Below are positions 1,505-63,153 of a stretch of 64,000 nucleotides of DNA, in pieces. The position numbers and the translations under genes were made by a program. The first letter of the stretch is position 1. Every line of letters begins with the position of its first letter. Source of the DNA: Zunongwangia profunda SM-A87 (lineage in GTDB: Bacteria; Bacteroidota; Bacteroidia; Flavobacteriales; Flavobacteriaceae); contig NC_014041.1 of assembly GCF_000023465.1 (NCBI RefSeq), forward strand, positions 3,292,001 through 3,356,000, given 5' to 3'. Below the pieces are notes generated by a model. It saw only the letters and a program-made list of their open reading frames with translations, ran no database searches and was not told where the DNA came from.

Positions 1505-1511
1505 AAATGAT

Positions 1512-6293: not shown

Positions 6294-6316
6294 AGCCGGG
6301 TGGTACCCGGCTTTTT
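6294..6316 (+). terminator. Rho-independent terminator of the xylan enzyme operon
   Basis: A GC-rich hairpin (AGCCGGGT and ACCCGGCT arms, 3-base loop) is followed directly by a T run, 43 bp after the GH115 stop. It marks the end of the + strand GH67-SDR-GH10-GH115 unit. Confidence 0.85.
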
Positions 6317-6689: not shown

Positions 6690-6716
6690 AAAAAGAGAGC
6701 TTTAAAGCTCTCTTTT
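6690..6716 (-). terminator. Terminator of the susC-susD operon (bidirectional shape)
   Basis: Arms AAGAGAGCTT and AAGCTCTCTT form a hairpin flanked by A and T runs, 25 bp past the SusD stop on the - strand. It would serve the - strand unit and could also work on + strand read-through. Confidence 0.8.
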
Positions 6717-6740
6717 CTATATTATTTAAAAAGTTCAATT

Positions 6741-8660
6741 CTATTGATAGCCAGGGTTCTGGTAAGCATCTTTTTCTGCTTGTGATACATCCAGATTATC
6801 TAATTGTCCGCGAGGTATTGGTCTTAAATAATGATAAGGCTCAATATTCCTATTCGTTACGGTTGGGGTATGATCTGTGGCATCATTGCCACCAATCATA
6901 TAAGATCCAGCTAATTCGTTCCATTTTTGAGTACGTACCAGGTCATACCAACGATAGCCTTCACCAAAGTATTCCCGGGAACGCTCTGCCAAAATAAAAT
7001 CGATATCTATAACATCTGGCGTCGCTGCTATCATGGCCGCACTATTATCCTCGATACGTTCTTCCTGTTCGCCGTTATCATAACACCATTTGCCGGCTCG
7101 CGCCCTAATAACATTAATTAAATCATAAGCACTATAACTTCCTGTTGCTCCTTTTACGGCTGCTTCAGCCGCCAGGAAATAAAATTCAGAATATTTTGCT
7201 ATTGGAAAAGGACGGGTTAGTGCTCCATTAGGAGATCCTAAACCACCTCCGTTATCCGTGCGGTAAGTCCCTAATTTCCATAAACCTGGATAAAACCTTC
7301 TATTAATTTCATCTGGGTTTATAACATAATCTGATCTTCCTGGAAGTTCTCCCCCTCCGATGTTAGCACCATTTACATAAACAACATTATCATTATGTTC
7401 ATCTAAAAATGATATCACCGCATCACCTGGGGCTATTTCCATACCATTGGCTGCCGTTAATGTAGGTTCAGTTGCACCACCTTTATCCCAGTTTCCTCTA
7501 TAACTGGTGACAAATGTAGCATCATAGCGAGAATCTAATTCTTTCTCTTCAAAAGTTTCTGTTAATACACCAATAGGTGGTGCCATTCTTGTCCAAGGCC
7601 TACCATAACTTTGAGCAGCTTCTCTTTGTACTGCAGAAACGCCATCCACACTTATACTGGTGTAGTTAGATGTTACCATCCAAACTGCTGTATTAGCACT
7701 ACCCTCTGGACCACTATATCCTAAATCTGCCCCGTTATAAAGTTGGCTATCTTCAGTACGATCTGCATATAACATCATTTCATCATGACGATCGTTCGTG
7801 GCCACATGTACATTATAAAAACAATCTAGTAAACGATAAGGGCCTGGATTCTCAATTCCCTCAACAGCTAGATCATAGGCTTTTTGGAAATAATAAGAAG
7901 CATCCTGACCATCCGGATCTGTTCTTGGCGTTTCAGGATAGGTAGGAATATTATTAGGATTCTCTAACCACCAGGCATAGGTTAAATAAGCTTTTGATAA
8001 AAACAGCCGAGCTACGTTCTTGGTTACTGCTCCGGTTAAACGCGGATTATCAGGTAAATCGTTTACAGCTGTTTGTAAATCTGGCAAAATAGCCCTGGTA
8101 TAAACTTCAGGTACTGTATTACGCACAGAAGTCCTAACGGCAGAATTATTAAATGCTAATTCACCAGAACCCAAATCTAGTGGTACACCACCATAATTTT
8201 GCACTAATAAAAAGTAATTAAATGCCCTAAAAAACCTTGCTTCTGCAATTAGCAAATTATCGAGTCCTACCCCTTCAGCATTTTCAATAATACCGCTAGC
8301 CGTATTTATTGCGGGAAAAGCATTTCCCCAAACAACACCTACTGAAAATCCACTTTCTGAACTTAAATTACCTTGCCCGGCAAGATCTAAATCATAAAAG
8401 TTATTATTGGCACTTTGGGCGGCAACATATTCATCTGTACCTGTTTCTGTTAAGTTTAAATAATATGCAAATCCAAAGACGTTTCGCATATTCTGATATA
8501 AATATGTTAATCCTCCCTGAACCCCAGTTTCTGTAGTAAAAAAATCTGGAGTAAATACTCCTCTTGTTTCTTCTTTCAGTATATCATCTGTACAAGATTT
8601 TAAACCGAATACCGACACCATTGAAAATATGGCTATAGGTATAATTCTAAATTTTCTCAT
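6741..8660 (-). CDS. SusD/RagB family glycan-binding lipoprotein
   Basis: SusD proteins sit on the outer face of the outer membrane, bind oligosaccharides and form the lid of the SusC channel. This one has 639 residues with a lipoprotein signal ending at LKSC (Cys23), followed by an acidic stretch typical of surface-exported lipoproteins. The TPR-like SusD fold is recognisable from RFFRAFNYFLLVQNYGGVPL near residue 145, RLFLSKAYLTYAWW, and a C-terminal EFYFLAAEAAVKGA / RAREYFGEGYRWYDLVRTQKW-like block (here ERSREYFGEGYRWYDL). It ends in the common NPGY motif. It starts 9 bp after the SusC stop, so the two are one operon. Converging on the GH10/GH115/GH67 cluster, it probably binds glucuronoxylo-oligosaccharides; that ligand is inferred. 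Confidence 0.95.
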   Translation of the reverse strand: MRKFRIIPIAIFSMVSVFGLKSCTDDILKEETRGVFTPDFFTTETGVQGGLTYLYQNMRNVFGFAYYLNLTETGTDEYVAAQSANNNFYDLDLAGQGNLSSESGFSVGVVWGNAFPAINTASGIIENAEGVGLDNLLIAEARFFRAFNYFLLVQNYGGVPLDLGSGELAFNNSAVRTSVRNTVPEVYTRAILPDLQTAVNDLPDNPRLTGAVTKNVARLFLSKAYLTYAWWLENPNNIPTYPETPRTDPDGQDASYYFQKAYDLAVEGIENPGPYRLLDCFYNVHVATNDRHDEMMLYADRTEDSQLYNGADLGYSGPEGSANTAVWMVTSNYTSISVDGVSAVQREAAQSYGRPWTRMAPPIGVLTETFEEKELDSRYDATFVTSYRGNWDKGGATEPTLTAANGMEIAPGDAVISFLDEHNDNVVYVNGANIGGGELPGRSDYVINPDEINRRFYPGLWKLGTYRTDNGGGLGSPNGALTRPFPIAKYSEFYFLAAEAAVKGATGSYSAYDLINVIRARAGKWCYDNGEQEERIEDNSAAMIAATPDVIDIDFILAERSREYFGEGYRWYDLVRTQKWNELAGSYMIGGNDATDHTPTVTNRNIEPYHYLRPIPRGQLDNLDVSQAEKDAYQNPGYQ

Positions 8661-8669
8661 ATTTTCTAT

Positions 8670-11600
8670 TTAAAATGAAATGTTTAAGCCTATCAAATAA
8701 TTTCTTGTAGAAGGAATGTTAGTTCCAATAGTTGGTATACCCCTGGAAATATTACTAGTATTTACAGCGGAATTTTGACGATTACCATTACCATCAACTC
8801 CTGAATTTGTAATCTCTGGATCTAAACCAGATTCATCATGAAAAGGTGAAAAAAGTACGAACGGGTTTTGTGCAGATGCATAAACACGTAACCTCTGCAG
8901 TCCAATATTGGTAATAAAATCTTGTTCAAAATTGTATCCCAAAGTAATTGAACGAACTTTTAAATACGAACCATCAAAATACCCTAACGTACTTGCATAC
9001 TCCTGGTTATCTCCACTTTGAAGTCCTCCCGGAGCAGGATATCTTGCATCTGTATTGGTTGGCGTCCAATAATCTACCGCAACGTTATTTTGTCTACCGG
9101 TTAGCAAATTAAGATAACTACTGGATGAATAGAGTGTACTCACCAAAGTACCACCGTGCTGGAAGGTTCCAACCATACTCAAGTCGATATTTTTATAAGC
9201 TAAACGCGTATTAAAACCACCCTGAAAATCTGGAGTTGGATCTATAATTACCCTGTCATCAGCTCCTATGGGGCGTACCGGAGATCCATCTGCATTATAT
9301 TCCCCGGTATATCGTACTTTGATCATCCCTGCAGCACTGGCACCCGGCTCATATTGTTGCAAGTACTGAAAATCCGGATCAGACTCATTCCAAAGTCCTA
9401 CATATTCATAATCATAAATTACATTAATAGGAGAGCCAACAAACCAAAGGTTTCCTTCATCTCGTTGTTGTCCCGAAGCTAGAGCAGTAATTTTGTTTTG
9501 ATTGCTGTAAAGATTGATTCCGGCATCCCAAGTAAAACCATCTGGATTATCAATTATAGTTCCGTTTAATGAGATTTCAACTCCCTTATTCTCGGTTTTA
9601 CCTATGTTACTGGTTATATTTCCTACACCAGATGATGCAGGAAGTCCCAGTGCGTATAAAATATCATTGGTTTTGGTTATATAATATTCAACCGTACCAG
9701 ATAAGCGGTTATTAAACAGTCCAAAATCAAGACCATAGTTATACGTCTGAGAAAATTCCCATCCCAGGTTGGCATTAGGTACCTGATCTATAAAGTAACC
9801 GGTAGCAAATGTACTACCAAAGTTATAATTTACCGTACCGAGTCTACCCTGAACGGAATAAGGGGCTATTGCCTGGTTGGAAGTCTCACCGTAACCGGCA
9901 CGTATTTTCAATTGGTTTAGCCAACTTACATTGTCCATAAATTTTTCGTTACCAATATTCCATCCTACAGATACTGCAGGATAGGTCACCCACTTATTAC
10001 CCGGGGCTAATCTAGATGAACCATCGGCACGTATGGTCGCTGTCATCAAATAACGATTGTCGTATTGATACATTACCCTCCCCATATAGGACAGTAATCC
10101 AGTAGCAGAATATCCGGTTCCGTAATTTGTTATATCCTCAGAAATTGCTGAATCCAGATTATACCATAAAGAAGACTCATCAGGAATATTCCTTGCTGTT
10201 AAGCCTACATTGTCATACTGTGTATTTTGAGCAGAAAATAATCCCACGAAGTTTACTTTGTGTTTCTCAGCAAATGTTCTATCGTATAGTATTTGATTTT
10301 CTACAACATAATCTCTTGTTATAGAACTATTATAGCTTCCAGATGAGGGGTTTTGTTCGTTATAATTAAAAACGCCCTGCCCTGTGAAGTCTCCATCTCT
10401 ATCAGTTCTAAAATTTAAACCAAGATTAAGTCGATATTTCAATCCTTCAATCCATGGTATTTTAACTTCAGCATAAATATTATTATAAGAGCCGTAATCC
10501 AATTGTTCATTTTTCCTTCTATCTCCTATTCGGTTTACTTCATTCCTGGTAGGAATCCAAAGGTTATCAGCTTCTGTTTGAAGCCTCACAGATTCTAAAA
10601 AATTTCCATTTTCATCATACGGACTTAAGAGCGGCGAGGCGGCTAATGCACCAAATACTCCTACAATACTACTGCTTTTGTTGAAGTTCATTACTGAATT
10701 CAAACCAAATTTAAATAAAGAACCTACTTCCTGATCAACCTGAGCTCTTAAAGAATATCTCTGGAAAGAATCTTCTGGCACCACCGATGTTTCTTTAAAA
10801 TACCCCATTCCTATATTAAAAGAGCCTTTTTCAGAACCTCCTTTTACGCTAATATCATGAGTTGTTTGAAGTCCGGTTCCGTATAAAAGATCCTGCCAGT
10901 CTGTATCATTAGCAAGATCTTCATCGCCACCCAAACCATAAATTGGGCTACCACCCTGATTAGGATGAGCTGCAACATCTGCACGTAATTGGGTAAGTTG
11001 CGCTGCATTCATCATTGGATATTTCGCAAACACGTCTTTTACTGCATAGTATGTATTATAAGAAAATGTAGCTTTTTGCCCCTGTCTTCCCGACTTTGTA
11101 GTGATAAGGATAACACCATTGGCACCCCGTGAGCCGTAAATAGCTGTGGCAGATGCATCTTTAAGTATATCAAGACTTTCAATATCATTAGGACTGATAT
11201 CACTTAGACCACCAGAAAAAGGAATCCCATTAAGTACAATTAAAGGATCATTATTACCAGAAAGCGATCGGGTACCACGAATTCGAACCTGCGGGGATGC
11301 CCCTGGCCTGGTACTGTTGGTAGAAATATTAACACCAGCGGCACGTCCTATAAGTGCTTCTTGAAAGTTAGCCGTCTTTACTTCGTTTAATTCTTCTCCT
11401 TTTACTGAAACCACTGATCCAGTAACAGATTCCCTACTTTGTGTACCATACCCCACCACGACCACTTCGCTCAAAGCTTCGGTATCGTCTTGCATGGTTA
11501 CGTTAATCTGTGTTCGCCCGTTAACTGCGATATCCTGAGCTCGATAGCCCATAAAGCTATAACTAAGGGTAGCATCTGATGGCACATTATTTAACGTATA

Positions 11601-11810
11601 GTTACCATCAAAATCGGTTGTTGTTCCCTGACTGGTTCCTACAATGAAAACATTTACTCCCGGCAGTGGTAATCCATCTGCGTCAACCACTTCTCCACTT
11701 ACTGTTGTATTTTGGGCGTACGCACCAGTAAATACCAACAAGAAAAACAGAAGTGAAAATTTGGGCATCCTGCCCAAACTCCTTACATAGTTAGTAATTT
11801 TTTCCTCCAT
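8670..11810 (-). CDS. SusC/RagA family TonB-dependent outer-membrane transporter
   Basis: This 1046-residue TonB-dependent receptor imports oligosaccharides with its SusD partner. After a signal peptide (ending GAYAQ, about residue 33) comes a carboxypeptidase-D-like regulatory domain (about 36-110), then the SusC signature SEVVVVGYGTQ, the plug domain (IRGTRSLSGNNDPLIVLNGIPF, DASATAIYGSRGANGVILITTKSG), and a 22-strand barrel ending in LIGLNISF with the usual terminal Phe. The annotated ATG gives a 14-residue n-region before a second Met that would also yield a good signal peptide, so the exact start is uncertain. It is followed by susD. Xylo-oligosaccharide import is inferred from the convergent xylanase operon. 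Confidence 0.95.
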   Translation of the reverse strand: MEEKITNYVRSLGRMPKFSLLFFLLVFTGAYAQNTTVSGEVVDADGLPLPGVNVFIVGTSQGTTTDFDGNYTLNNVPSDATLSYSFMGYRAQDIAVNGRTQINVTMQDDTEALSEVVVVGYGTQSRESVTGSVVSVKGEELNEVKTANFQEALIGRAAGVNISTNSTRPGASPQVRIRGTRSLSGNNDPLIVLNGIPFSGGLSDISPNDIESLDILKDASATAIYGSRGANGVILITTKSGRQGQKATFSYNTYYAVKDVFAKYPMMNAAQLTQLRADVAAHPNQGGSPIYGLGGDEDLANDTDWQDLLYGTGLQTTHDISVKGGSEKGSFNIGMGYFKETSVVPEDSFQRYSLRAQVDQEVGSLFKFGLNSVMNFNKSSSIVGVFGALAASPLLSPYDENGNFLESVRLQTEADNLWIPTRNEVNRIGDRRKNEQLDYGSYNNIYAEVKIPWIEGLKYRLNLGLNFRTDRDGDFTGQGVFNYNEQNPSSGSYNSSITRDYVVENQILYDRTFAEKHKVNFVGLFSAQNTQYDNVGLTARNIPDESSLWYNLDSAISEDITNYGTGYSATGLLSYMGRVMYQYDNRYLMTATIRADGSSRLAPGNKWVTYPAVSVGWNIGNEKFMDNVSWLNQLKIRAGYGETSNQAIAPYSVQGRLGTVNYNFGSTFATGYFIDQVPNANLGWEFSQTYNYGLDFGLFNNRLSGTVEYYITKTNDILYALGLPASSGVGNITSNIGKTENKGVEISLNGTIIDNPDGFTWDAGINLYSNQNKITALASGQQRDEGNLWFVGSPINVIYDYEYVGLWNESDPDFQYLQQYEPGASAAGMIKVRYTGEYNADGSPVRPIGADDRVIIDPTPDFQGGFNTRLAYKNIDLSMVGTFQHGGTLVSTLYSSSSYLNLLTGRQNNVAVDYWTPTNTDARYPAPGGLQSGDNQEYASTLGYFDGSYLKVRSITLGYNFEQDFITNIGLQRLRVYASAQNPFVLFSPFHDESGLDPEITNSGVDGNGNRQNSAVNTSNISRGIPTIGTNIPSTRNYLIGLNISF

Positions 11811-45756: not shown

Positions 45757-46476
45757 TTAATTATCGAAGCCAATTTGTTCTATATTAAAATAAGTATCTG
45801 CCATGTCAGTAAGTACACTTAAACTTACTGTAGACCGAATTCTAAATTCCAAAGTTTCCCCTTTTTCCAGCCTTACCAGCCCGTTTATTACCCGTGAAGG
45901 AGGATTTACTCCTACATCTATTAAATTTAGCAGATTAACCCGAATATTGGAATAATAGTCTCTGGCAATATAAGTTTCCTGGCCACCTAAATTTCGTTTT
46001 ACGGCAGCTATTCCTATATCGCCAATAAAAATTTGATTCATTGTTATTTTTGCATCAATCCGATATATACCAGAAGACTTAGCTGTAAATATATTACTGC
46101 TTGTATTAAACTCTGAGTTGCTATCAAATTCTGTATTATTAAATCTCAATTTTTGCCAGGAATTCAAGCTTATATTTAAACTTAATATGGCGTTTGTGGT
46201 AGACATTCCTCCTTTTACGATGGTCTTGCCTACTGCATTTATTACCTTAACAGCGGGTATCCGCTTTACTATTCCTTGTCCATCAATAACTAAAATAGAA
46301 TCTTTAGCACTGGCCAGGCCCCCTATTGGTGTAGTGCCGATCCTCAGTGTACCATTAACATCTAATTTAGCTTTGGGATTCGTTGTTCCTATACCTACCT
46401 GACTATAAATTGAATCACTTAAAAGCATTAGGATAGACAGGATTAAAAATTGATAAATTTTATGTTGTGTTTTCAT
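45757..46476 (-). CDS. Secreted C1q-like-domain protein
   Basis: The 239-residue protein has a signal peptide (about 1-26, ending IYSQ), then VGIGTTNPKAKLDVNGTLRIG, a motif seen in Bacteroidetes surface proteins and tail-fibre-like N-termini, and a C-terminal jelly-roll resembling C1q/TNF domains (GIYRIDAKITM, LEKGETLEFRIRS, YFNIEQIGF). It is the last gene of the adhesin operon, 12 bp after the OmpA/PD40 gene, so it is probably an accessory surface component. The binding partner is unknown. The domain call rests on pattern, not a search. Confidence 0.75.
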   Translation of the reverse strand: MKTQHKIYQFLILSILMLLSDSIYSQVGIGTTNPKAKLDVNGTLRIGTTPIGGLASAKDSILVIDGQGIVKRIPAVKVINAVGKTIVKGGMSTTNAILSLNISLNSWQKLRFNNTEFDSNSEFNTSSNIFTAKSSGIYRIDAKITMNQIFIGDIGIAAVKRNLGGQETYIARDYYSNIRVNLLNLIDVGVNPPSRVINGLVRLEKGETLEFRIRSTVSLSVLTDMADTYFNIEQIGFDN

Positions 46477-46488
46477 AAGCGCTCTTTT

Positions 46489-48408
46489 TTATTTTACGAT
46501 AATAAAATTAGATCTGCGATTTTCTTCATGTTCTTCGTCATTACACTCTACACCATTAACACAGCGGTTAAGGATTTCTATTTCTCCGTAGCCTTTGATG
46601 CTTACAATTCGGTTTTCAGCAATACCTCTCGAGATTAGATAGTTTTTAGTTGATTTTGCGCGATTTTGAGATAACAATAAATTATAGGTATCACTGCCCC
46701 GGGAATCGGTATGGGACTCGATTTTAATCTTCATCTCGGGAAAACTTTCCAATACATAAACAATATGATCTAGCTGTTTTGCCGCTCTGGGCCTGATATC
46801 ATATTCATTAAATTCAAAAAATATAGGATCGATCTTTATTTTCTCTTCATCTCCATCAATTTCTACTAAATCGTTGTAAGAAGAGAGTAGAAAGTTTACG
46901 CCATCCAACGTATCGCGGTGTACATTTCCTGTAGTAATCGATTTTACAGCTATAGAATAGTTATTTTTGGTACCAGTAACTAAGAATGTATTATTACAGG
47001 GAACTTGTGCTAAATAGATTCCCTTGCTATCGGTCATCACCGTTTTTATCTTGGTATCGAACTGATTTTTGATGATTACAGATGCATTCGCTAGTGGTTT
47101 CTTAGTAAGCGAATCCAAAACTTTTCCCGCCATCAATTGATAACAGGAACGGGTAAAATAGTAAATATCATCATCACCTTTACCCATACTTCGGTTAGAC
47201 GACATATAACCTTCTTCTTGATTTTCAGCAATGATATACGAAAAATCATCCTTACTGCTATTAACAGGTTTTCCTAAATTCTGCGGAACACTAAACCGAA
47301 AATCCCCCAAATTTTTAGCCTGGAAAATATCCAAACCACCTAAACCATAATGCCCGTCTGAAGAAAAATATAAAACATCATTCTGATAATATGGAAACAT
47401 CTCCCGACCTTCGGTATTGATTTGAGCCCCAAGGTTTTTTGGTAGTGTCATACTACCATCTGGATTTAGTTGAACCATATAAAGATCTGTATCTCCAAAT
47501 CCCCCTGGCATATCCGAGACAAAAAATAAATATTTCCCATCTGCACTAAGCGCCGGATGTCCAACCGAATACTCCTTGCTATTAAAAATTAGGTCTTCTA
47601 TACCCTCAACTTCACCTTCTACAATATGCCCTCGCATCACATGAAAATTATTCACCCCGTTTTTATTAGACCATTTGTTATTTTTGCTCATGTTAGTGGT
47701 GTAATAAATGGTATCCAATGCGTTAGAAAATGCTATAGTTGCATCGTGATAACGCGAAGCTAAACCTTCCATAAACAGTTGTTCATTTATAAGCTCGCCG
47801 TTATTTTTAGTGCGATCAGCGATATACAGGTCTAAATATGGCTGCTGATTCCATACATATATTTTATTACTAGTTTCATTATTTTTTTTGCTTGAAGAAT
47901 ACACTAACTGATCGCCATAAAATGCAGCACCGAAATCTGAATTCTCACTATTAATCGATAAATTATAAAGCACGTAATCTGAACTTTCTTCCTTCAAATC
48001 GCGGAGTTCTTTTCTCTGCTCTTTAAACCGATTGATAAGCATAGGATTTTTTTGACGTTTTAAATAAATTTCAGCTAACGCGTCAGCTTTTTCATAATCC
48101 TGCACACCACGCAAAGTTTGGATATACTTAAACAAATACTCGTTTTCCATCGCCTCTCCCTGGATTTTGTACAATTGGGCATACCATTTTAAAGCCTGTG
48201 GGATCTTACTAATAAAATAGTGAGCATCCCCGGCATTCTTAAGGGTTTCTATTTCTCTTTTATCAGTTTTTTCTAAATAATCATCATAAACTTTTGCGGC
48301 CTCTATATAATTCATCTCCTCAAATAATTGATCAGCATGCTTCACACGCTGTGCCTGAAGCGATATACCCAGAATCAAAAAAATCGATATTATATAGTAG
48401 TTTTTCAT
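46489..48408 (-). CDS. TPR-PD40-OmpA envelope protein (T9SS-associated type)
   Basis: The 639-residue protein has a signal peptide (ending SLQAQ, about 20), TPR-like helices (about 22-125), a PD40/WD40-like beta propeller (about 150-420, with GHPALSADGKYLFFVSDMPGG and DVLYFSSDGHYGLGGLDIF), a carboxypeptidase-D-like domain (about 430-500) and a C-terminal OmpA domain (about 525-639, ESHTDSRGSDTYN). This architecture is that of PorE-like proteins and others co-encoded with PorP/SprF. It probably ties the secretion or adhesin complex to peptidoglycan. It follows the SprF gene by 11 bp. Confidence 0.9.
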   Translation of the reverse strand: MKNYYIISIFLILGISLQAQRVKHADQLFEEMNYIEAAKVYDDYLEKTDKREIETLKNAGDAHYFISKIPQALKWYAQLYKIQGEAMENEYLFKYIQTLRGVQDYEKADALAEIYLKRQKNPMLINRFKEQRKELRDLKEESSDYVLYNLSINSENSDFGAAFYGDQLVYSSSKKNNETSNKIYVWNQQPYLDLYIADRTKNNGELINEQLFMEGLASRYHDATIAFSNALDTIYYTTNMSKNNKWSNKNGVNNFHVMRGHIVEGEVEGIEDLIFNSKEYSVGHPALSADGKYLFFVSDMPGGFGDTDLYMVQLNPDGSMTLPKNLGAQINTEGREMFPYYQNDVLYFSSDGHYGLGGLDIFQAKNLGDFRFSVPQNLGKPVNSSKDDFSYIIAENQEEGYMSSNRSMGKGDDDIYYFTRSCYQLMAGKVLDSLTKKPLANASVIIKNQFDTKIKTVMTDSKGIYLAQVPCNNTFLVTGTKNNYSIAVKSITTGNVHRDTLDGVNFLLSSYNDLVEIDGDEEKIKIDPIFFEFNEYDIRPRAAKQLDHIVYVLESFPEMKIKIESHTDSRGSDTYNLLLSQNRAKSTKNYLISRGIAENRIVSIKGYGEIEILNRCVNGVECNDEEHEENRRSNFIIVK

Positions 48409-48419
48409 AGCGATTAAGA

Positions 48420-49358
48420 TTAGAAAAAGCGAGGAGATTTAATTTTATTATTCCCTTTCAAAAGGTCAAAACGCAATAGAATCTCGTGAGTACCATCATT
48501 ATACTTAGTAAAATCTGTAGTGGTGTAATCATATGAGTAGCCGACAAACAAACTTCTGGAGATTTGAAAACCAGCCAGCAGGCTTACCGAGTCGTTCCAA
48601 CGATAAGCCGCTCCTAAATTCAGAAATTCCTGTAATAAAAAATTTGCTGATACATCTACAGAGACCGGTGCACCGCTAACGGCCTTCACTAAAAAAGCAG
48701 GCTTAAGTTTCAAGTTTCTATTGATATCGAATACATACCCTCCCATTATGAAATAATGTAAACGATTGGAAAGAACCGCCTCCTGTATATCATCATAATA
48801 ATCTGAGCGGATAAAATTGGGGATCGATGCTCCAATATACCAGCGATCAGAATACCAATAAGCACCTGCCCCCAGTGAAGGCATGATCCTACTGTCGATA
48901 TTGTTATTTAAAAGTACATCTTCTGGATCGTAAAATCGTCCTTTACTCCAATCTACATTTAAAACACGGGCGCCCCCCTTTACTCCAAAGGCAAGCTTAG
49001 TGTAATATCCGGTTTGAATAGTATAAGAGAAATTAGCATCAGCAAAGACTTCGCTCGAAGGACCAAGTTTATCATTCACGATATTAAGTCCCAACCCCAT
49101 TTTTTCATTTCGAAGTGGAGAATGCATACTAAAGTTTTGAGTCTCTGGAGCTCCATCCACACCCACCCACTGGCTACGATAAAGCAATAGTGCTTGCAAG
49201 CTTCCCGTGCTTCCCGCATAAGCAGGGTTAATTGACATGGTATTAAACATATACTGTGTATAGTGTGGATCCTGCTGTGCTATCACCTCTTTTGTTAGCA
49301 TGAGCATAAGGAGAACAAAGCAGGATTTTAAGTTTTTATATATATAAGCTGTATTCAT
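48420..49358 (-). CDS. PorP/SprF family T9SS membrane protein
   Basis: The 312-residue outer-membrane protein has a signal peptide (ending EVIAQ, about 28) and the PorP/SprF start QDPHYTQYMFNTMSINPAYAGSTG. It forms a beta barrel of about 14 strands. SprF in Flavobacterium johnsoniae is needed for secretion and surface display of SprB, and type B CTD adhesins usually have their own SprF-like partner next door. Here it lies 39 bp downstream of the 1800-residue adhesin, so it is most likely that adhesin's dedicated factor. Confidence 0.94.
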   Translation of the reverse strand: MNTAYIYKNLKSCFVLLMLMLTKEVIAQQDPHYTQYMFNTMSINPAYAGSTGSLQALLLYRSQWVGVDGAPETQNFSMHSPLRNEKMGLGLNIVNDKLGPSSEVFADANFSYTIQTGYYTKLAFGVKGGARVLNVDWSKGRFYDPEDVLLNNNIDSRIMPSLGAGAYWYSDRWYIGASIPNFIRSDYYDDIQEAVLSNRLHYFIMGGYVFDINRNLKLKPAFLVKAVSGAPVSVDVSANFLLQEFLNLGAAYRWNDSVSLLAGFQISRSLFVGYSYDYTTTDFTKYNDGTHEILLRFDLLKGNNKIKSPRFF

Positions 49359-49397
49359 AATTCTATGTTTTCTTTAAGATTTAATTTTATTGATACA

Positions 49398-52300
49398 TTA
49401 TCTCATTATATATAACCATCCCTGGATGTTTACATCTTCTACTTCTCCTCTTCCATCTACCTTTAGGACATAGTAATAAGTTCCTACCGGTAAAGGCTTG
49501 TTGGTGAATATCGCACCTTTATTTGCCGTGCCATCCCAATCATTTTGGTATCCCCTGGTTTCATATACCAGATCTCCGTAGCGATTGTAAACCTCTAACT
49601 TGTTATTTGGATAATTCTCAATACAATCAATTCTGAATACGTCGTTGGATCCATCATTATTGGGAGTAAATTCATTATAAACAAGAAGACAAATTGGATT
49701 AATTGTAATTTGCGCCTCATTATTAGCGGCATTAATATCTACTGGATCGCTAGATACGAGTTCTACCATATTCATATAATCGTCGCCTTCTAACACTTCT
49801 ACCGTGACGCGAACTTCTGCGAACGCATTGGCTCTTAGCATTGGTATGCTCCATTCCTTACTTACCATACTGAATTCGCCCATTGCAGCGGTTACCGATT
49901 TTAATCGATATCCTGAATCAATTATATCACGAATCATGATATCCCTGAAATCACTATTCCCCAGATTATCAACCCTAATCGTGAAGGTAATATCATCACC
50001 AATCATTGGCGAGAGGTTATCTACGGAAATACTCAATGCAAGGTCTGAACAGTTGACTACGTTCACATCAATCATTTCCATAAGTTCTGTTGAGCAATTA
50101 CCAGTATCCATGTATGAAACACTTACTGAAGTATTTAAAAGGCTTGTCCATCTTACGGTAACTGAATTATCAGACAATTCTCCGCCAGCTACAATTTCAC
50201 CTCCATCAATATCCCACAAGTAATCTTCTTTACCGGAATCGGTAGTGTAAGTTACTTCCTGCATTAAACAAATTCCGTCTAAAAGACCATCTATAGTTGG
50301 TGCTATGTTTGTAGCTAAATTCACCCTTACCGCTAATAAGTCATTACTTGCACAGCCACTGGATGGATCAAAACCAGCATAATAGGTCATTCCATCTACC
50401 AGAATTTCTGTATCATCGAGTAAGGTATCCCCTTCTTCATCAGCATACCATACCACATTGCCTTCATTGGTCATCAAATCGGCTACCGTGGCTTCTCCAC
50501 AAAAACTTTGGGTAGCCATATCCGTTGTAGGGGTTCCCGGATCGCTAACATTAACGGTAATCATTGCCGCTTCACCCGGTAGGTTTTCACATACACCGTC
50601 TCCGCTTACCGTTACATAGTAAGTGGTTGTTTGCGTGGGCATCACTTCTAAGTCGGTCAGTTCCATAGTCAGATCAGCATCTGTATAAAAGGTAAATACT
50701 GGATTCGTTATTGAGCTACTTGCCGCCAGTTCTACACTGCCGCCAGCACAGATATCGAAGTTCGTAGTCAACAGATCATCGGCGGTCGCAGTTGGTTGAA
50801 TCTCCACCCTTACCGCTAATAAATCATTACTTGCACAGCCACTGGATGGATCAAAACCAGCATAATAGGTCATTCCATCTACCAGAATTTCTGTATCATC
50901 GAGTAAGGTATCCCCTTCTTCATCAGCATACCATACCACATTGCCTTCATTGGTCATCAAATCGGCTACCGTGGCTTCTCCACAAAAACTTTGGGTAGCC
51001 ATATCCGTTGTAGGGGTTCCCGGATCGCTAACATTAACGGTAATCATTGCCGCTTCACCCGGTAGGTTTTCACATACACCGTCTCCGCTTACCGTTACAT
51101 AGTAAGTGGTTGTTTGCGTGGGCATCACTTCTAAGTCGGTCAGTTCCATAGTCAGATCAGCATCTGTATAAAAGGTAAATACTGGATTCGTTATTGAGCT
51201 ACTTGCCGCCAGTTCTACACTGCCGCCAGCACAGATATCGAAATTCGTAGTCAACAGATCACCGGCGGTCGCAGTTGGTTGAATCTCCACCCTTACCGCT
51301 AATAAGTCATTACTTGCACAGCCACTGGATGGATCAAAACCAGCATAATAGGTCATTCCATCTACCAGAACTTCTGTATCATCGAGTAAGGTATCCCCTT
51401 CTTCATCAGCATACCATACCACATTGCCTTCATTGGTCATCAAATCGGCTACCGTGGCTTCTCCACAAAAACTTTGGGTAGCCATATCCGTTGTAGGGGT
51501 TCCCGGATCGCTAACATTAACGGTAATCATTGCCGCTTCACCCGGTAGGTATTCACATACACCGTCTCCGCTTACCGTTACATAGTAAGTGGTTGTTTGC
51601 GTGGGCATCACTTCTAAGTCGGTCAGTTCCATAGTCAGATCAGCATCTGTATAAAAGGTAAATACTGGATTCGTTATTGAGCTACTTGCCGCCAGTTCTA
51701 CACTGCCGCCAGCACAGATATCGAAATTCGTAGTCAACAGATCACCGGCGGTCGCAGTTGGTTGAATCTCCACCCTTACCGCTAATAAGTCATTACTTGC
51801 ACAGCCACTGGATGGATCAAAACCAGCATAATAGGTCATTCCATCTACCAGAACTTCTGTATCATCGAGTAAGGTATCCCCTTCTTCATCAGCATACCAT
51901 ACCACATTGCCTTCATTGGTCATCAAATCGGCTACCGTGGCTTCTCCACAAAAACTTTGGGTAGCCATATCCGTTGTAGGGGTTCCCGGATCGCTAACAT
52001 TAACGGTAATCATTGCCGCTTCACCCGGTAGGTTTTCACATACACCGTCTCCGCTTACCGTTACATAGTAAGTGGTTGTTTGCGTGGGCATCACTTCTAA
52101 GTCGGTCAGTTCCATAGTCAGATCAGCATCTGTATAAAAGGTAAATACTGGATTCGTTATTGAGCTACTTGCCGCCAGTTCTACACTGCCGCCAGCACAG
52201 ATATCGAAGTTCGTAGTCAACAGATCACCGGCGGTCGCAGTTGGTAGTACATCTACTTCAAATGGAATTCTTTCCTGAATCAGACAACTATTCCGGGTAA

Positions 52301-54800
52301 TTTCTAAATAAAATATTTGGCTGGTATTTATTTCTGACGTTGTAAAACTTCCGCCCGTGGCCAATAGAGTTCCTCCCGTTGGAGCATCGTACCAAGAGTA
52401 TGATAATCCTGTTTCGGTTATGATATCAAAATTTATTGTTTCTCCGGCACATATTTCTACGATATCATTATCGACTTCCACTTCTGGCACCACAATATAG
52501 GCGCCATAGATATCTACACTGGTCAGGGCCGATACCAATCCCATATTACGGATCTCTACCCTGTCATAAGTGTTCTTTGCTTCGAAAATTGCATTGAACC
52601 TATTGCCAGACAGCAGACTTAAGTTCACTAAGGCATCATTAACATTTAATTGTTGTACCTGGGTCGTCCCGTTATACAAAGTCACCTGTATTCCGCCAAG
52701 TACCCCTATATCTGCAAGGCCTCCCGGAACAGCCAGATCCAAACGAATACTGTCGCCCGAAACTCCTGACTGTGGAAAAATAAGCTCCTGATATACCGAA
52801 CCACTAACCCCTACTCCAAGGGTCAACCGGCTAAAATTATTGGGATCATTGTCCACGGCATTACCCGCATTGCTTACCCCACAACCTATACATAAAAGCC
52901 CGGAAATACCGTTGCCCTGTGCATTTGCTGCCGAACAATCCACAAGCGCTTCGATAGCTTCAACCACAAGAGTTACCTGGGTTGCTGTAGAGACCTGATT
53001 GGTAACAGGATCCCGTGATATTACCTCATAGGTGTAAGTCCCAGGTACCAGTGTGGATGGGGTCGTAAACTGATCCCCAACAAAAACTTCATCGCCTTGC
53101 TCATCAAACCATACATAGTCTACAGGGGAAGGATTATCACTACTGGCCATAAAACTTACGCTCTCCCCTTCTGAAATCGTCGCAGTAGCAGGTACCACTT
53201 TGGGTGGTAATAAATCCCCAAGTAAGGTAATGTTCGCACTCGTGGGTAAACTTATACATCCTGATCCGGAAACCGCTACTACACTATAACCGGACGAGGC
53301 GGTTACATCGGTTAGTTCATACGTCTCCCCCGTATGGACTATAGTGGATGTATCCCCCTCTGCATACCAGTTATAGGTTAGGCCAGTATCAGCATCGGCA
53401 ACCTCAAAAGTTACATCTCCACCTGAGGCTACTTCAATAGAGCTTTCTACCAGTTGCGGTGCATCCGGAAGCGCTTCAACTTCTACACTTATCATTGTAG
53501 GTTCTGATTCCGTGGTACAACCTGCAAGGCTCTGGCTAACATAATAGCTATAGCTTCCCGAAGAAACATCGGATAGCTCATAATCCGTACCCGTATAGAC
53601 CGGACTGCCACCACTGGATACAGAATACCACCGATAGGTGGAACCCGGCATAGGGCTTACCACAGATAAAGTCAAATCACCACCAGCACATAATTCCGCA
53701 ATGCCACCCACAAGGGAAGGGGAAGTTAGCTCGGGTTTTGACGGGCTCTGCCCTATTTCATAAATATTTAAACCACTTAATGTCTCCAATAATCCACGAC
53801 CAACGCTTATGCGTATCTTATCAAAAGATTGACTTATAGGCACGCTCAAAACTTGCTTATCAGAGCTTCCTCCTAATAAGGATAAACTAACTAACGAACT
53901 TCCTAAATCAATATCTGCTAGTTCCTGTCCGTTTAAAAAGGCCTTAATTTCAACTGAGGATGATAATAGACTAAGATCTAATAGCCCAGTAGCCTGACCT
54001 TGCAGAACAATCCTCGCTGATTCCCCAGGTAAACTATTTCTATTAAAAGGCACTTCTAAAAAGGCTTCTTCTAACAAGCTTACATTCGCCCTTAGCTCAG
54101 CACGTGAATTATCATCTCCATCTATAGCATTTGAAGGATTTCTTACCACATTTAATAAACTAGCTACATCCAGGCCATTCCCACTAACACCATATAATAT
54201 ATCCAAGGCTTCAGGACAACCAGTTTCTCCGGTATATTCATAATAAAAAGCCTCATAAACATTGAAGCTTGCGGCTAGACCTCCTAATGAGATCTTTACC
54301 CCATCATACGCTACTGATGGTATAAATGTTATTTCTCTTTGTTGTGGCCCTGATAATAAACTTGCTAAACTGCTTAGGCGGACTTCATTACCAACGGTGT
54401 TTCCTGTATTATTTATGGCACTCCCAACACCGTTAACGGCCTGTATAGTTACATTGTCTAACAGGGATAGTAATTGACTCTCTGATCCTACTTTTAGAGT
54501 TACCGGAGTACCTGCCGGAAGTTCTTTTCCAAATCTTAAACGTAATGAAGCCCTTGAAGAACCGGATAAAGATAACAAGGTATTCATTTGAGCATAAGTT
54601 TCCAGATTTTGATCTACAGCTGCATTTGCATTCTTTATATCTCTATTTAAAAGTACAGTGCTACTTGCTTGAAAAGTAGTTGCATACTTTCGCTCTTTAA
54701 TATCTTGTGCAGAGCAAATCGTTGAAAAACTTAGCAGAAATAATAAAAATATAGAATAATAGGCTATTCCATATTGGGTTAGTAGTTTAGTTAATTTCAT
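49398..54800 (-). CDS. Giant repeat adhesin with T9SS type B sorting domain
   Basis: This 1800-residue surface protein has a signal peptide (about 1-31, ending ICSAQ). Domain order as I read it: two related beta-sandwich modules (about 35-195 and 195-360), three Ig/PKD-like domains (about 365-620), a third related module (about 622-775), one Ig-like domain (about 780-850), four tandem 161-residue units (853-1496, each apparently two Ig-like domains), a PKD-like domain, a DUF11-like domain (about 1590-1695), and a gliding-motility-type CTD (about 1700-1800, VYNEFTPNNDGSNDVF and YNRYGDLVYE). The last marks type IX secretion with type B sorting, as in SprB. The PorP/SprF gene follows. Role: adhesion or gliding; ligand unknown. 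The four units are almost identical, a sign of recent duplication or gene conversion. Confidence 0.93.
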   Translation of the reverse strand: MKLTKLLTQYGIAYYSIFLLFLLSFSTICSAQDIKERKYATTFQASSTVLLNRDIKNANAAVDQNLETYAQMNTLLSLSGSSRASLRLRFGKELPAGTPVTLKVGSESQLLSLLDNVTIQAVNGVGSAINNTGNTVGNEVRLSSLASLLSGPQQREITFIPSVAYDGVKISLGGLAASFNVYEAFYYEYTGETGCPEALDILYGVSGNGLDVASLLNVVRNPSNAIDGDDNSRAELRANVSLLEEAFLEVPFNRNSLPGESARIVLQGQATGLLDLSLLSSSVEIKAFLNGQELADIDLGSSLVSLSLLGGSSDKQVLSVPISQSFDKIRISVGRGLLETLSGLNIYEIGQSPSKPELTSPSLVGGIAELCAGGDLTLSVVSPMPGSTYRWYSVSSGGSPVYTGTDYELSDVSSGSYSYYVSQSLAGCTTESEPTMISVEVEALPDAPQLVESSIEVASGGDVTFEVADADTGLTYNWYAEGDTSTIVHTGETYELTDVTASSGYSVVAVSGSGCISLPTSANITLLGDLLPPKVVPATATISEGESVSFMASSDNPSPVDYVWFDEQGDEVFVGDQFTTPSTLVPGTYTYEVISRDPVTNQVSTATQVTLVVEAIEALVDCSAANAQGNGISGLLCIGCGVSNAGNAVDNDPNNFSRLTLGVGVSGSVYQELIFPQSGVSGDSIRLDLAVPGGLADIGVLGGIQVTLYNGTTQVQQLNVNDALVNLSLLSGNRFNAIFEAKNTYDRVEIRNMGLVSALTSVDIYGAYIVVPEVEVDNDIVEICAGETINFDIITETGLSYSWYDAPTGGTLLATGGSFTTSEINTSQIFYLEITRNSCLIQERIPFEVDVLPTATAGDLLTTNFDICAGGSVELAASSSITNPVFTFYTDADLTMELTDLEVMPTQTTTYYVTVSGDGVCENLPGEAAMITVNVSDPGTPTTDMATQSFCGEATVADLMTNEGNVVWYADEEGDTLLDDTEVLVDGMTYYAGFDPSSGCASNDLLAVRVEIQPTATAGDLLTTNFDICAGGSVELAASSSITNPVFTFYTDADLTMELTDLEVMPTQTTTYYVTVSGDGVCEYLPGEAAMITVNVSDPGTPTTDMATQSFCGEATVADLMTNEGNVVWYADEEGDTLLDDTEVLVDGMTYYAGFDPSSGCASNDLLAVRVEIQPTATAGDLLTTNFDICAGGSVELAASSSITNPVFTFYTDADLTMELTDLEVMPTQTTTYYVTVSGDGVCENLPGEAAMITVNVSDPGTPTTDMATQSFCGEATVADLMTNEGNVVWYADEEGDTLLDDTEILVDGMTYYAGFDPSSGCASNDLLAVRVEIQPTATADDLLTTNFDICAGGSVELAASSSITNPVFTFYTDADLTMELTDLEVMPTQTTTYYVTVSGDGVCENLPGEAAMITVNVSDPGTPTTDMATQSFCGEATVADLMTNEGNVVWYADEEGDTLLDDTEILVDGMTYYAGFDPSSGCASNDLLAVRVNLATNIAPTIDGLLDGICLMQEVTYTTDSGKEDYLWDIDGGEIVAGGELSDNSVTVRWTSLLNTSVSVSYMDTGNCSTELMEMIDVNVVNCSDLALSISVDNLSPMIGDDITFTIRVDNLGNSDFRDIMIRDIIDSGYRLKSVTAAMGEFSMVSKEWSIPMLRANAFAEVRVTVEVLEGDDYMNMVELVSSDPVDINAANNEAQITINPICLLVYNEFTPNNDGSNDVFRIDCIENYPNNKLEVYNRYGDLVYETRGYQNDWDGTANKGAIFTNKPLPVGTYYYVLKVDGRGEVEDVNIQGWLYIMR
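50313..52244 (-). repeat. Four tandem 483-bp repeats within the adhesin gene
   Basis: Units run 52244-51762, 51761-51279, 51278-50796 and 50795-50313 (- strand order). Each encodes 161 residues from PTATAGDLLTTNF to LLAVRVEIQ. The protein copies differ at only a handful of positions: Asn/Tyr in CENLPGE, Val/Ile in DDTEVLV, Gly/Asp in TAGDLL (unit 4), and the last few residues of unit 4. Silent differences are also few. Confidence 0.97.
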
Positions 54801-55281: not shown

Positions 55282-56784
55282 CTAAAATTCATGTTCATCG
55301 TTAATTTTAGTAAGATAATCGTAGAAGTTTTCTTCAGAAGTTAAGCCCATTTTTTTTCTTAATCTGCTTTTTTTCTTTTGTACCGACCGGTGCTCAATAA
55401 AAGTGTATCTAGCAATTTCTTTTGTATCGAATTTTAGGTAAATCATCGCACAAAATTTCTTATCGGAAATAGTTAAATTGGAATGCTGTTTCATAAGGGC
55501 TCTATAAAAATCAGAATAGACTTCTTCAAATCTTTTCAAAAAGGTAGAGTCATTATTTTTAGCCATTATTATAACTTCTTCAAAAGCCTGATTGAGTTGA
55601 TTTTTTAATTGCTTCGTTTCTTTTTCTTTTGCTATAGTGATCTTTTTTAAGTTTGCCCTGGTCATCAAAAAGAAATAAAAAAGGAAGCCTGATAAAGCTA
55701 TAATTACACAACCTAAAAGGTTTACAGATGTTTTATTTGAATCTTCATTTTCTCCATAGCTTTCAGGGACTTCGGAGACTTTTCTCAACTTATCGAATAA
55801 AGCAATTGATCTTTCATTTTTCAATTTTGATATACTATCCAAAACTTCTTCATATTTTTTGCTATGATAATTTGCCTTTATAGTATCGTTTAATTTGAGG
55901 TAAGTTCTACCTAACTGATTATAAATATTTGGATAAAGAGACCAGTTTGCAGTTTGCTTTTCAATAATATCTAAACTTTTAAGATAGTTGGAAAGTGCCA
56001 GTTTATAATTCTGTTCTTTAAAATAAAATTCACCCAGATAATAAAAATGAGGAAATTTTTTAATGTAGTCGTTTTCATTGTTTAGACTTGAGTCCAGAAA
56101 AATAAGCGCTGAATCTGATTGATGGATGTGCTGATAGTATCCTCCTTTTAAAAGAAGATAATCATTATATTCCTTTGTTTTCTGGGGTTTTAAAAGAGAA
56201 TCTGCATAGCGATCTGCACGTCTCATATATTTCTTTAAAGAATCAAGGTTCTTGGTAATACTATAATAATTACCTAAATTCAGAGCAATTCTCATCTTTA
56301 ATAGATATTTATCATCCATTAATTGAAATGAGTTTAGTGTATCTAAAATATTTTCAGCCTTTTGTAGTTCCACAAAATATTGATCTTGCCAGCCATTATG
56401 CAAGTAATTGATTGCTAAATTTTCCCTGGTTTTAACTTCCAGGATCGGGTCGGTTTTAATATAAGTCTCCTGTAACACTTCATTAAAAAAATATAAACTG
56501 CTCTTATTCATTTCCAGACTAAACATCGCTCGGCCAATTTTATAATAGCTTTTTGCTTTGAATTCACTATTATTATTGTCATCTGCCCATTGCATCACCT
56601 GATAAGCATATGCTATCGATTCCATTTCTTTAGAAAACTCAAATTTTTTGTCGGAAAGTAATAATAAGCTATCCTGTTTTTGAAATACCTCCTGACCATA
56701 GAAAGGAGATGACAAGGATAAAACCGAAACTAAAAATAAAAGTATTTTAATATGAGCGCTTTGAAAAAAGTAATCATGTACCAT
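55282..56784 (-). CDS. TPR sensor with membrane helix and C-terminal HTH
   Basis: The 500-residue protein has a signal peptide (about 10-30, ending FYGQ), an extracytoplasmic TPR domain (about 45-330), one membrane helix (about 353-373, LLGCVIIALSGFLFYFFLM), a coiled coil and a cytosolic LuxR-like helix-turn-helix (about 440-495, FCAMIYLKFDTKEIARYTFIEHRSVQKKKSRLRKKMGL). This is a one-component membrane regulator type common in Bacteroidetes. It lies directly upstream of the adhesin operon on the same strand, so it may control it; proximity is the only evidence. Confidence 0.88.
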   Translation of the reverse strand: MVHDYFFQSAHIKILLFLVSVLSLSSPFYGQEVFQKQDSLLLLSDKKFEFSKEMESIAYAYQVMQWADDNNNSEFKAKSYYKIGRAMFSLEMNKSSLYFFNEVLQETYIKTDPILEVKTRENLAINYLHNGWQDQYFVELQKAENILDTLNSFQLMDDKYLLKMRIALNLGNYYSITKNLDSLKKYMRRADRYADSLLKPQKTKEYNDYLLLKGGYYQHIHQSDSALIFLDSSLNNENDYIKKFPHFYYLGEFYFKEQNYKLALSNYLKSLDIIEKQTANWSLYPNIYNQLGRTYLKLNDTIKANYHSKKYEEVLDSISKLKNERSIALFDKLRKVSEVPESYGENEDSNKTSVNLLGCVIIALSGFLFYFFLMTRANLKKITIAKEKETKQLKNQLNQAFEEVIIMAKNNDSTFLKRFEEVYSDFYRALMKQHSNLTISDKKFCAMIYLKFDTKEIARYTFIEHRSVQKKKSRLRKKMGLTSEENFYDYLTKINDEHEF

Positions 56785-58020: not shown

Positions 58021-59367
58021 ATGAATAAAAATTTATTGCTTTTCGCCTTCTTCCTTACTGCTTTATTTAGTGCCTGCCATAAAAATGATGATCAGGAGCC
58101 GCTACCCAATAGTATCGCAAATCGCACCAACCTTATTTATATTGTAGCCGATAACAATTTAAGTGCTTATGCCAGCCGGGATATTGAAGAAATGATTATG
58201 GGGTATAAAAATGTAGACCAACCAGAACTTAATAACCTGCTGGTATATATTGATGATTATTCTACCCCCCGCTTACTCCAGATCAAAAAACAGGGTTCAC
58301 AGGTAATTACCGATACCATTTATAATTATACCGAGCATAATTCGGTAAGCAAAGAAGTTATGTCTTATATTATTGGTCAGGTTTTAGAGGAATACGAAGC
58401 TAAATCTTACGGGCTGAGCTTTTGGTCGCACGGCGACGGTTGGCTTCCGGCTACTGACCAGGCAAAAACAACGGTTAATTCTAGAGCTTTTGGAGAAGAT
58501 AGGGATAATAATATGTATGGCGAAGGCAAACGAATGGATATTTTAGACTTAAGGAAAACACTGGAAGAATTTCCTAAATTTGATTTTATTCTTTTTGACG
58601 CCTGTGATATGCAAAGTATCGAAGTAGCCTACGAATTAAAAAATACCGCCGATTATTTTATAGCTTCTGTTACTGAAGTTCCCGCCTATGGTGCTAATTA
58701 CGCAGATATGGTGCCCGCGCTATTTTCTGAGACTAGAACCGCTGAACAAATTGCGGAGGCCTATTATCTGGAATATTCCGAAAATTACGATAAGGGTTTG
58801 AACGAAGAAGTCCCTAGCCGCAAGTTTAATATTAAAAATTCTGCGGCAACTACGACAAAGACTATTAGTACCACCAACAAATATCCGTATGGCATAGCAA
58901 TTTCGGTTATTAAAAGTAGTGAATTGGATTTTCTTGCCGAGGCGACAAAAGCAATTATCCAGGCCGAAAAATCTAAAGGACAGCCAATAAATACAAAACA
59001 AGTAACTAATTATGATAGTAATTACTATAACTTTTATTATGATTTGGGCAGCTATATTTCCAGCTTAAGTTCTGCAGACCCCGGTATATTTCAGCAATGG
59101 GAAGATATTCTGGCAAAGGTCGTTCCGCTTAATCTGCACACTCCTACGGTTTACTCCTCCTATGCCAATGATTATAAAGGAGGAATCATTTCTATCCGAA
59201 ATTCTTCAGGAATTAGCGTTTTTATTCCCAACAATAATAATTTTGCCGATGCCGTACACTGGGAAAAATATCCTGAACTCACACAAGCCTACCAGGTAGA
59301 TCGGTTCTATTCATATTACCTGGATTATTATCATAATTACCGTTGGTCTGTAACTATGGGATGGTAA
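58021..59367 (+). CDS. Clostripain-family (C11) cysteine protease, lipoprotein
   Basis: The 448-residue protein has a lipoprotein signal ending at FSAC (Cys19). The caspase-like C11 fold is recognised by YIVADNNLSAYASRDIEEM near the start, catalytic His137 in FWSHGDGW and catalytic Cys195 in FDACDMQSIEVAYEL. C11 proteases cut after basic residues (Arg/Lys). It is probably anchored on the cell surface or in the periplasm. It stands alone between two gene-less stretches, so its regulation and target are unknown. Confidence 0.92.
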   Translation: MNKNLLLFAFFLTALFSACHKNDDQEPLPNSIANRTNLIYIVADNNLSAYASRDIEEMIMGYKNVDQPELNNLLVYIDDYSTPRLLQIKKQGSQVITDTIYNYTEHNSVSKEVMSYIIGQVLEEYEAKSYGLSFWSHGDGWLPATDQAKTTVNSRAFGEDRDNNMYGEGKRMDILDLRKTLEEFPKFDFILFDACDMQSIEVAYELKNTADYFIASVTEVPAYGANYADMVPALFSETRTAEQIAEAYYLEYSENYDKGLNEEVPSRKFNIKNSAATTTKTISTTNKYPYGIAISVIKSSELDFLAEATKAIIQAEKSKGQPINTKQVTNYDSNYYNFYYDLGSYISSLSSADPGIFQQWEDILAKVVPLNLHTPTVYSSYANDYKGGIISIRNSSGISVFIPNNNNFADAVHWEKYPELTQAYQVDRFYSYYLDYYHNYRWSVTMGW

Positions 59368-61831: not shown

Positions 61832-62524
61832 ATGATAATGAATATAGAAACAATAGCCCTGGATGCGGATGATACTTTATGGGTGAATGAGCCCTATTTT
61901 CAGGCTACAGAAAAAGAATTTTGTGCTTTATTAAAGGATATCATGCCCGAGGATAAAATTTCAGCGGAACTCCTTAAAACCGAAATGAAAAATCTCGAGT
62001 TGTATGGTTACGGTATTAAAGGTTTTATGCTTTCCATGATCGAAACATTATATAAAATTACCGATGCAAAAGCCGATATAAAGCTTGTTCGGAAAGTAAT
62101 CGATTTGGGCCACGATCTCATTCAACAACCAGTAGAACTTATAGAAGGGGTTGAAGATACATTGGAAAAATTAAGTAAGAAATATAAACTGGTATTGGCT
62201 ACAAAAGGTGATCTTTTAGATCAGGAAAGAAAATTAAAAGCTTCTAAGCTTGGTAAATGGTTTGTACACATCGAAGTTATGAGCCATAAGACTCCTGATA
62301 ATTTTCGTAAACTAATTCGTCATTTAGAGATCCTGCCAAAAAACTTTCTTATGGTTGGGAATTCGATACAATCAGATATTATTCCGGTATTAGAAATCAA
62401 CAGTTATGCTGCACATATCCCCTATAGCATTACCTGGAATCATGAAAAACATGAAAAAGAACTGGAACATCCAAACTTGTTTAAACTAGAAAAAATCGAA
62501 GATCTCTTAAACCATTTAATTTAA
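61832..62524 (+). CDS. HAD-family hydrolase
   Basis: The 230-residue protein has the HAD motifs: I, nucleophile Asp11 and Asp13 in LDADDTLW; II, Thr in LATKGD; III, Lys in SHKTPDNF; IV, VGNSIQSDI. A helical cap lies between motif I and II. It is likely a small-molecule phosphatase, substrate unknown. The last base of its TAA stop is the first base of the next ATG, so translation of the CatA-like gene is coupled to it. Confidence 0.92.
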   Translation: MIMNIETIALDADDTLWVNEPYFQATEKEFCALLKDIMPEDKISAELLKTEMKNLELYGYGIKGFMLSMIETLYKITDAKADIKLVRKVIDLGHDLIQQPVELIEGVEDTLEKLSKKYKLVLATKGDLLDQERKLKASKLGKWFVHIEVMSHKTPDNFRKLIRHLEILPKNFLMVGNSIQSDIIPVLEINSYAAHIPYSITWNHEKHEKELEHPNLFKLEKIEDLLNHLI

Positions 62525-63153
62525 TGAAGAAGCATATCAACCTGGACAACTATGACAGAAAAGAACAGTTTAAATTCTTTAAAGGTTTTGAAGAACCTTT
62601 TTTTGGACTAACTACTCATTTAAATTGTGAAAACATCTATAATTACTGCAAAAAAAAGAAAATTCCCTTCTTTGCTTATTATTTATATCAAACCAATAAA
62701 GCAGTTAATCAAGTCAACAATTTTCGGCAAAGAATTATAAATGATCAAATTTATCAATTTGATGTTATCCATATTTCTACAACTATAGCCAGAAAAAACA
62801 AGACTTTTGGTTTTTCGTATCTTAAGCACAGTGAGCACTTTAACGAATTTCTTGATCAATTCGTTAAAGAAAGAAAAAGAATAGAAAACTCTGATTTACT
62901 TATGCCGGCAAATATGGATGAGCAAGTAATACATTATTCTGCTATTCCCTGGATTAATTTCAGTTCTATCTCACATGCAAGAAAATTTTCCATTAACGAT
63001 ACTTGCCCAAAAATTACATTTGGAAAAATCCATAAAAGTAAAGAAGGCCTTATGATGCCAGTTTCAATTCACGCCCATCATGCGCTTGTGGATGGTTATC
63101 ACATAGGTCAACTAGTCCAAATAATCCAAAACAACTTTAATAACAATGAATAA
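62524..63153 (+). CDS. CatA-like O-acetyltransferase
   Basis: The 209-residue protein is of the chloramphenicol acetyltransferase fold, which forms trimers and uses acetyl-CoA. The catalytic His186 and structural Asp190 are in HHALVDGYH, and PWINFSSISHA is the central signature. Bacteroidetes chromosomes often carry such xenobiotic-type CatA-like genes without clinical resistance; chloramphenicol activity is not shown. It is coupled to the HAD gene by a one-base overlap. Confidence 0.9.
   Translation: MKKHINLDNYDRKEQFKFFKGFEEPFFGLTTHLNCENIYNYCKKKKIPFFAYYLYQTNKAVNQVNNFRQRIINDQIYQFDVIHISTTIARKNKTFGFSYLKHSEHFNEFLDQFVKERKRIENSDLLMPANMDEQVIHYSAIPWINFSSISHARKFSINDTCPKITFGKIHKSKEGLMMPVSIHAHHALVDGYHIGQLVQIIQNNFNNNE

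Follow-up and report, generated by a model that had tools for sequence, protein, structure and literature searches.

A complex of PorE and PorP with a type B cargo protein of the type IX secretion system (T9SS) has been reported from Porphyromonas gingivalis, with support for both the PorE-PorP and the PorP-cargo contacts (PMC9143113). The same report described PorE as a lipoprotein, and it postulated that the carrier is the only binding partner of mobile type B proteins, whereas non-mobile ones are additionally tied to the wall via PorP-PorE-like complexes. In Flavobacterium johnsoniae, five operons of adhesin, SprF-like and PorE-like make-up have been reported, and Fjoh_3952, with a PorE-like gene after its carrier gene, was described in static foci only (PMC12618676). 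The carrier SprF, by comparison, is reported to couple to the moving track through a Cys-X-Cys of the C-terminal tail, which forms a disulfide to GldK and is needed for gliding (PMC12635249), and the sprB/sprF genes of F. johnsoniae were described without a PorE-like neighbor (PMC9143113). In the present study, a locus of four adjacent genes was analyzed in Zunongwangia profunda SM-A87, whose genome is one contig of 5,128,187 bases (NC_014041.1); bases 3292001-3356000 of this contig, 64,000 nucleotides in all, are referred to below as the window. The first three genes, encoding a giant adhesin, a PorP/SprF-like carrier and a PorE-like protein, would constitute a static, wall-anchored T9SS type B adhesin operon, and the fourth, encoding a C1q-like protein, would be a lineage-specific neighbor that the module does not need; we assign this reading a probability of roughly 0.85. 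Its static, wall-anchored part is drawn from the literature on PorE and Fjoh_3952, from a carrier that lacks Cys-X-Cys, from a separate Cys-Arg-Cys carrier in the same genome, and from the presence of GldK and SprA. With this result, three of the genes join a class of static T9SS adhesins that has already been described, and the C1q-like gene is no conserved part of the machine.

All four open reading frames (ORFs) were confirmed on the minus strand at 45757-54800, adjacent as the initial annotation had listed them, with intergenic gaps of 39, 11 and 12 nt in transcription order. The adhesin (1800 aa; 49398-54800) matched 12 Ig_7 stretches, DUF11 and CHU_C (97 bits) in Pfam, and its TIGR04131 type B sorting domain reached 60 bits, above the cut-off of 35, in agreement with the secreted, type B-sorted giant adhesin that had been proposed. 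Moreover, Tandem Repeats Finder revealed a feature that had gone unremarked, namely four near-identical repeats of 161 residues (50322-52245; minus strand) with a period of 483 bp, 4.0 copies and 99% matches. The copies differ from one another at only 3-7 positions per pair over 483 bases, and the arrays of congener adhesins are more divergent (5.0 copies at 84% and 4.8 copies at 74%), which suggests recent homogenization or expansion of the repeats in Z. profunda.

The carrier gene (312 aa; 48420-49358) lies 39 nt downstream of the adhesin gene, and its product matched PorP_SprF (PF11751) at 300 bits, so that the outer-membrane SprF partner was correctly recognized. Its sole cysteine is residue 13, near the N-terminus, and the C-terminal Cys-X-Cys is absent. 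A third SprF-like carrier of the same genome, which stands alone, harbors a Cys-Arg-Cys near the C-terminus (positions 5875-6921 of locus L003/L060). This lone carrier has no adjoining cargo gene, and three CHU_C genes that have no carrier of their own could share it. The third protein of the operon (639 aa; 46489-48408) contained OmpA and PD40 domains above the Pfam cut-offs, together with carboxypeptidase-regulatory-like and TPR matches below theirs. The initial description as a peptidoglycan-binding protein with TPR, propeller and OmpA parts was sustained for the propeller and the OmpA C-terminus; the TPR part is weak, and the peptidoglycan anchor is putative. This domain set is the one reported for PorE (PMC9143113). 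The protein scored 319 bits against the 600-bit cut-off of T9SS_PorE (NCBIfam NF052230) and is named only PorE-like for this reason; it likewise scored 346 bits against the cut-off of 620 for CHU_0125_OmpA.

By analogy with the related proteins of the literature, we infer cargo-carrier pairing, PorE-type anchoring and static behavior for this operon. The adhesin would be exported via the SprA translocon encoded elsewhere, and its CHU_C domain would be taken up by the co-encoded SprF-like carrier, with the adhesin retained at the cell surface. The PorE-like protein would tie the carrier to peptidoglycan, and because the carrier would be fixed in this manner, the adhesin would stay put and may serve attachment, either of the cell to a surface or between cells, and not gliding. 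The operon had been called self-contained, which was wrong, since the SprA and GldK genes are located elsewhere in the Z. profunda genome.

To survey conservation, named genomes were scanned with the SprF protein, which gave 57 loci with flanks that extended 8 kb at most or stopped where the contig did, and these were analyzed with hidden Markov models built from 26 SprF, 32 PorE-like, 25 CHU_C and 18 C1q-like sequences. In the 38 loci with a close carrier (50-91% identity), which come from Zunongwangia, Flavobacterium, Salegentibacter, Mesonia, Tenacibaculum and Polaribacter, a PorE-like gene was found downstream in 37, a CHU_C gene upstream in 34, and both in 33. The sole close locus without a PorE-like gene was that of Salegentibacter maritimus, where stops abound in all three forward frames downstream of SprF, and in one of the four loci without CHU_C the contig begins at the carrier gene. 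A CHU_C gene also lay upstream in all 19 loci with a distant carrier (28-37% identity). When, in another genome collection, the best OmpA match was taken in each of the 29 top-scoring genomes among 249 of the family, SprF adjoined the OmpA gene in 24 of these 29 non-self loci, and the proposed linkage of the OmpA gene to the adhesin was upheld in relatives. Within the genus, Z. atlantica and Z. mangrovi carry the orthologous triad in the same order (SprF 91% and OmpA 82-83% identical), the adhesin gene of Z. atlantica being cut by the contig end, and the best SprF of the other three congeners was only 44-45% identical. Furthermore, Z. profunda possesses a second triad at 4.198 Mb, with an adhesin of 1335 aa, an SprF-like carrier and an OmpA/PD40 protein of 536 aa, after which the C1q-like gene is absent. 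These comparisons give good support to a conserved module in which the adhesin is accompanied by a carrier and a wall anchor of its own. Such a three-gene module is already described in the literature (PMC9143113, PMC12618676), and the suggestion of an undescribed system could not be maintained; of the four-part surface machine that had been envisaged, the three-gene part stood and the C1q-like protein as the fourth part did not.

The C-terminal tails of carriers were surveyed across 40 genomes of the family. Among 263 PF11751 matches, the best 150 and the lone third carrier of Z. profunda were examined (151 of 263, with 112 weaker ones left out), with at least 0.5 kb downstream of each carrier; they represented 149 distinct proteins, in which the motif was sought in the last 45 residues. 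A Cys-X-Cys tail occurred in none of the 110 PorE-linked carriers and in 24 of the 39 unlinked ones, and an earlier pass over 92 carriers gave the same picture. These observations raise the idea, for which we see the chances as about even, of a two-way anchoring code of T9SS carriers: those with a Cys-X-Cys tail would couple to the GldK track, which moves, and those with a linked PorE-like gene to the wall, and no carrier would have both features. The carrier of the window would then belong to the wall group and the lone third carrier to the track group. Both halves of this code have been published; the joint either/or rule was not found stated in the portions of the T9SS literature covered, a scope to which the reviews PMC9127263 and PMC10202324 do not belong. 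If the code holds, moving and static surface adhesins of Bacteroidota would be predictable from sequence.

The linkage of the fourth gene was evaluated in the same loci and in those of its own relatives. The C1q-like gene (45757-46476; minus strand) begins 12 nt after the PorE-like gene and encodes 239 aa with an N-terminal VGIGTT motif. The initial annotation had tied it to the adhesin and had proposed a search for the same four-gene order in other Bacteroidota. In that search, a C1q-like gene stood beside the triad in none of the 57 named SprF loci, which were also devoid of any ORF longer than 120 aa with a VGIGT-type start, and in none of the 29 OmpA loci; after the orthologous triads of Z. 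atlantica and Z. mangrovi it was absent as well (0/2), other genes being found there, and DNA similarity to the congeners stops at window position 46501, 12 bases short of where the OmpA gene ends (46489). The proposed linkage thus failed in relatives. A scan of the named genomes with the single C1q-like protein found no relative. C1q-like matches were found in 26 of 249 family genomes, that of Z. profunda included, and in 12 of 395 genomes of the phylum (alignment query, E≤1e-10); four of six genus genomes had a match, which in the three others was a relative of 28-31% identity located elsewhere. Apart from Z. profunda, 25 family genomes had a match, and wide loci were taken from 20 of them; the five left out matched weakly, although one of these slightly outscored an included one. 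None of the 20 contained an SprF or PorE-like gene; one contained a lone CHU_C gene on the opposite strand. Another 50 loci, taken narrowly with 1.5 kb flanks and including two that overlap, showed no SprF, PorE-like or CHU_C neighbor. In a Pfam scan, aconitase recurred close to the C1q relatives in 12 of the 20 wide loci, 7 of which also had carotenoid-type genes (phytoene synthase and the like), and because of this recurrence the family seems to have its own conserved location near aconitase. One relative is split by an in-frame stop (positions 5405-6118 of locus L015/L049).

The main rival explanation holds that the C1q-like protein was recruited in this species as a trimeric tip or accessory head, exported and assembled with the adhesin into a four-part machine. 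The 12-nt gap on the same strand is in keeping with this idea, and so is the nature of the protein. Although it had no Pfam match at E≤0.01 and alone reached only E 0.034 and 14.8 bits against PF00386, below the cut-off of 23.7, PF00386 was matched at E≤0.1 by 17 of the 18 members of the alignment, among them the Z. profunda protein (best 7e-7), and the family profile matched solved C1q and cerebellin chains, so that a C1q/TNF-type fold is supported at the family level. The C1q-like label can be kept in that family-level sense. A stretch of 25 profile positions at the N-terminus of the family matched the Bdellovibrio fiber protein Bd2133 (8ond, E 3.7e-4), phage tail-protein families matched weakly, and TNF/C1q-like domains are reported to serve as fiber tips in Bdellovibrio (PMC10769870). 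These matches give some substance to the earlier remark that this N-terminus resembles fiber proteins, but they do not tie it to the operon. An AlphaFold2 model of the C1q-like protein from the single sequence gave a mean predicted local distance difference test score of 34.7 and was not used. Against recruitment, the gene stands beside the operon in no relative examined, its relatives lie elsewhere without SprF or PorE, no T9SS sorting domain was found in its product in Pfam and NCBIfam scans, and the adhesin has a complete C-terminal sorting domain of its own. We regard such a four-part machine as unlikely; the C1q-like gene is probably a lineage-specific neighbor and not part of the adhesin machine.

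Two further alternatives concern the adhesin itself. It could be an SprB-like gliding adhesin moved by the track, given that the CHU_C and SprF families are the same and that both GldK and SprA are encoded in the genome. However, its carrier lacks the Cys-X-Cys by which SprF is coupled, the lone carrier with Cys-Arg-Cys is the better gliding candidate, and a PorE-like partner is present, which sprB/sprF do not have, and gliding is accordingly judged very improbable. The other alternative, that the adhesin builds multimeric prey-catching hooks, comes from its match to GhpA of Aureispira, whose hooks are reported to consist of a T9SS-secreted protein in heptameric form (PMC11205867). Residues 30-600 matched GhpA (PDB 9flp) with E 8e-53 over 18 stretches, the whole protein gave E 1e-36, and its C-terminus matched the end of GhpA at 46 bits. 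Since Ig-like repeats and CHU_C are shared domain families, this match speaks for shared domains and not for shared assembly; moreover, the adhesin has 1800 aa as opposed to 5898, and the other PorE-linked adhesin of the genome has no such match. Hook formation by this protein appears more improbable still.

Several points nevertheless weigh against the static, wall-anchored operon with a dispensable neighbor. A PorE-like gene was present in none of the 19 distant SprF loci, and the PorE-like protein itself scores below the cut-off of the PorE equivalog and lacks an N-terminal (lipobox) cysteine. Neither a PorE-like gene nor Cys-X-Cys was found for 15 of the 149 surveyed carriers. The carrier tree, a quick tree with long-branch warnings, showed only 3 changes for Cys-X-Cys, so that the split is structured by clade, and 9 changes for PorE linkage, and an independent-pairs test on the subset of 92 carriers was not significant. 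In view of the 3 changes and the non-significant test, the Fisher p of 7.7e-18 from the motif survey was not taken as the strength of the evidence; the split is clean but based on few evolutionary events. Finally, the C1q-like gene lies on the same strand just past the OmpA stop with no terminator-like site listed between them. With this spacing, it may be co-transcribed or co-expressed with the triad in Z. profunda, and it could have been recruited in this lineage for a lineage-specific role.

Regarding the surroundings, a promoter scan gave 42 sites compared with a mean of 49.9 in shuffles, and a terminator scan gave 8 compared with 8.1, neither exceeding chance; no Rfam match was found within the window. 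A TPR protein (55282-56784) is encoded about 480 bp upstream of the adhesin, and its C-terminus weakly resembles the BT3442 family. This gene and that of a clostripain-family (C11) protease (58021-59367) were considered as partners and dropped, as neither had a match at E≤1e-20 in the other five of six genus genomes. At 2-11810 of the window, GH67, GH10 and GH115 genes with a SusC/SusD pair look like a glucuronoxylan utilization locus, and a protein of the chloramphenicol acetyltransferase family (PF00302) is encoded at 62524-63153. The main text of the Z. profunda SM-A87 genome paper (PMC2864250) does not mention gliding, adhesin, secretion, OmpA or motility.

Compared with known systems, the locus comes closest to the Fjoh_3952-3951-3950 operons of F. 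johnsoniae, in which the three gene families and their order are the same and for which static placement of Fjoh_3952 is reported; the likeness is at the level of family and order, and an extra C1q-like gene follows in Z. profunda. The PorE-PorP-PG1035 complex of P. gingivalis is reported with the same three families, but the PorE-like protein of the window reaches 319 of 600 bits and has no cysteine near its N-terminus, whereas PorE is a lipoprotein. The SprB-SprF pair of F. johnsoniae likewise has a type B giant adhesin with an adjacent carrier of the SprF family; the Z. profunda operon differs in its downstream PorE-like gene and in a carrier without the C-terminal Cys-X-Cys. GhpA of Aureispira shares the Ig-like repeats and the CHU_C-like C-terminus, a likeness at the level of domains, and the adhesin has about a third of its length. 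With the Bdellovibrio MAT fibers (PMC10769870), as reported, the C1q-like protein shares the short N-terminal motif match to Bd2133 followed by a C1q/TNF-type domain; those fibers have about 1000 aa as opposed to 239 aa here, where the long fiber part is absent.

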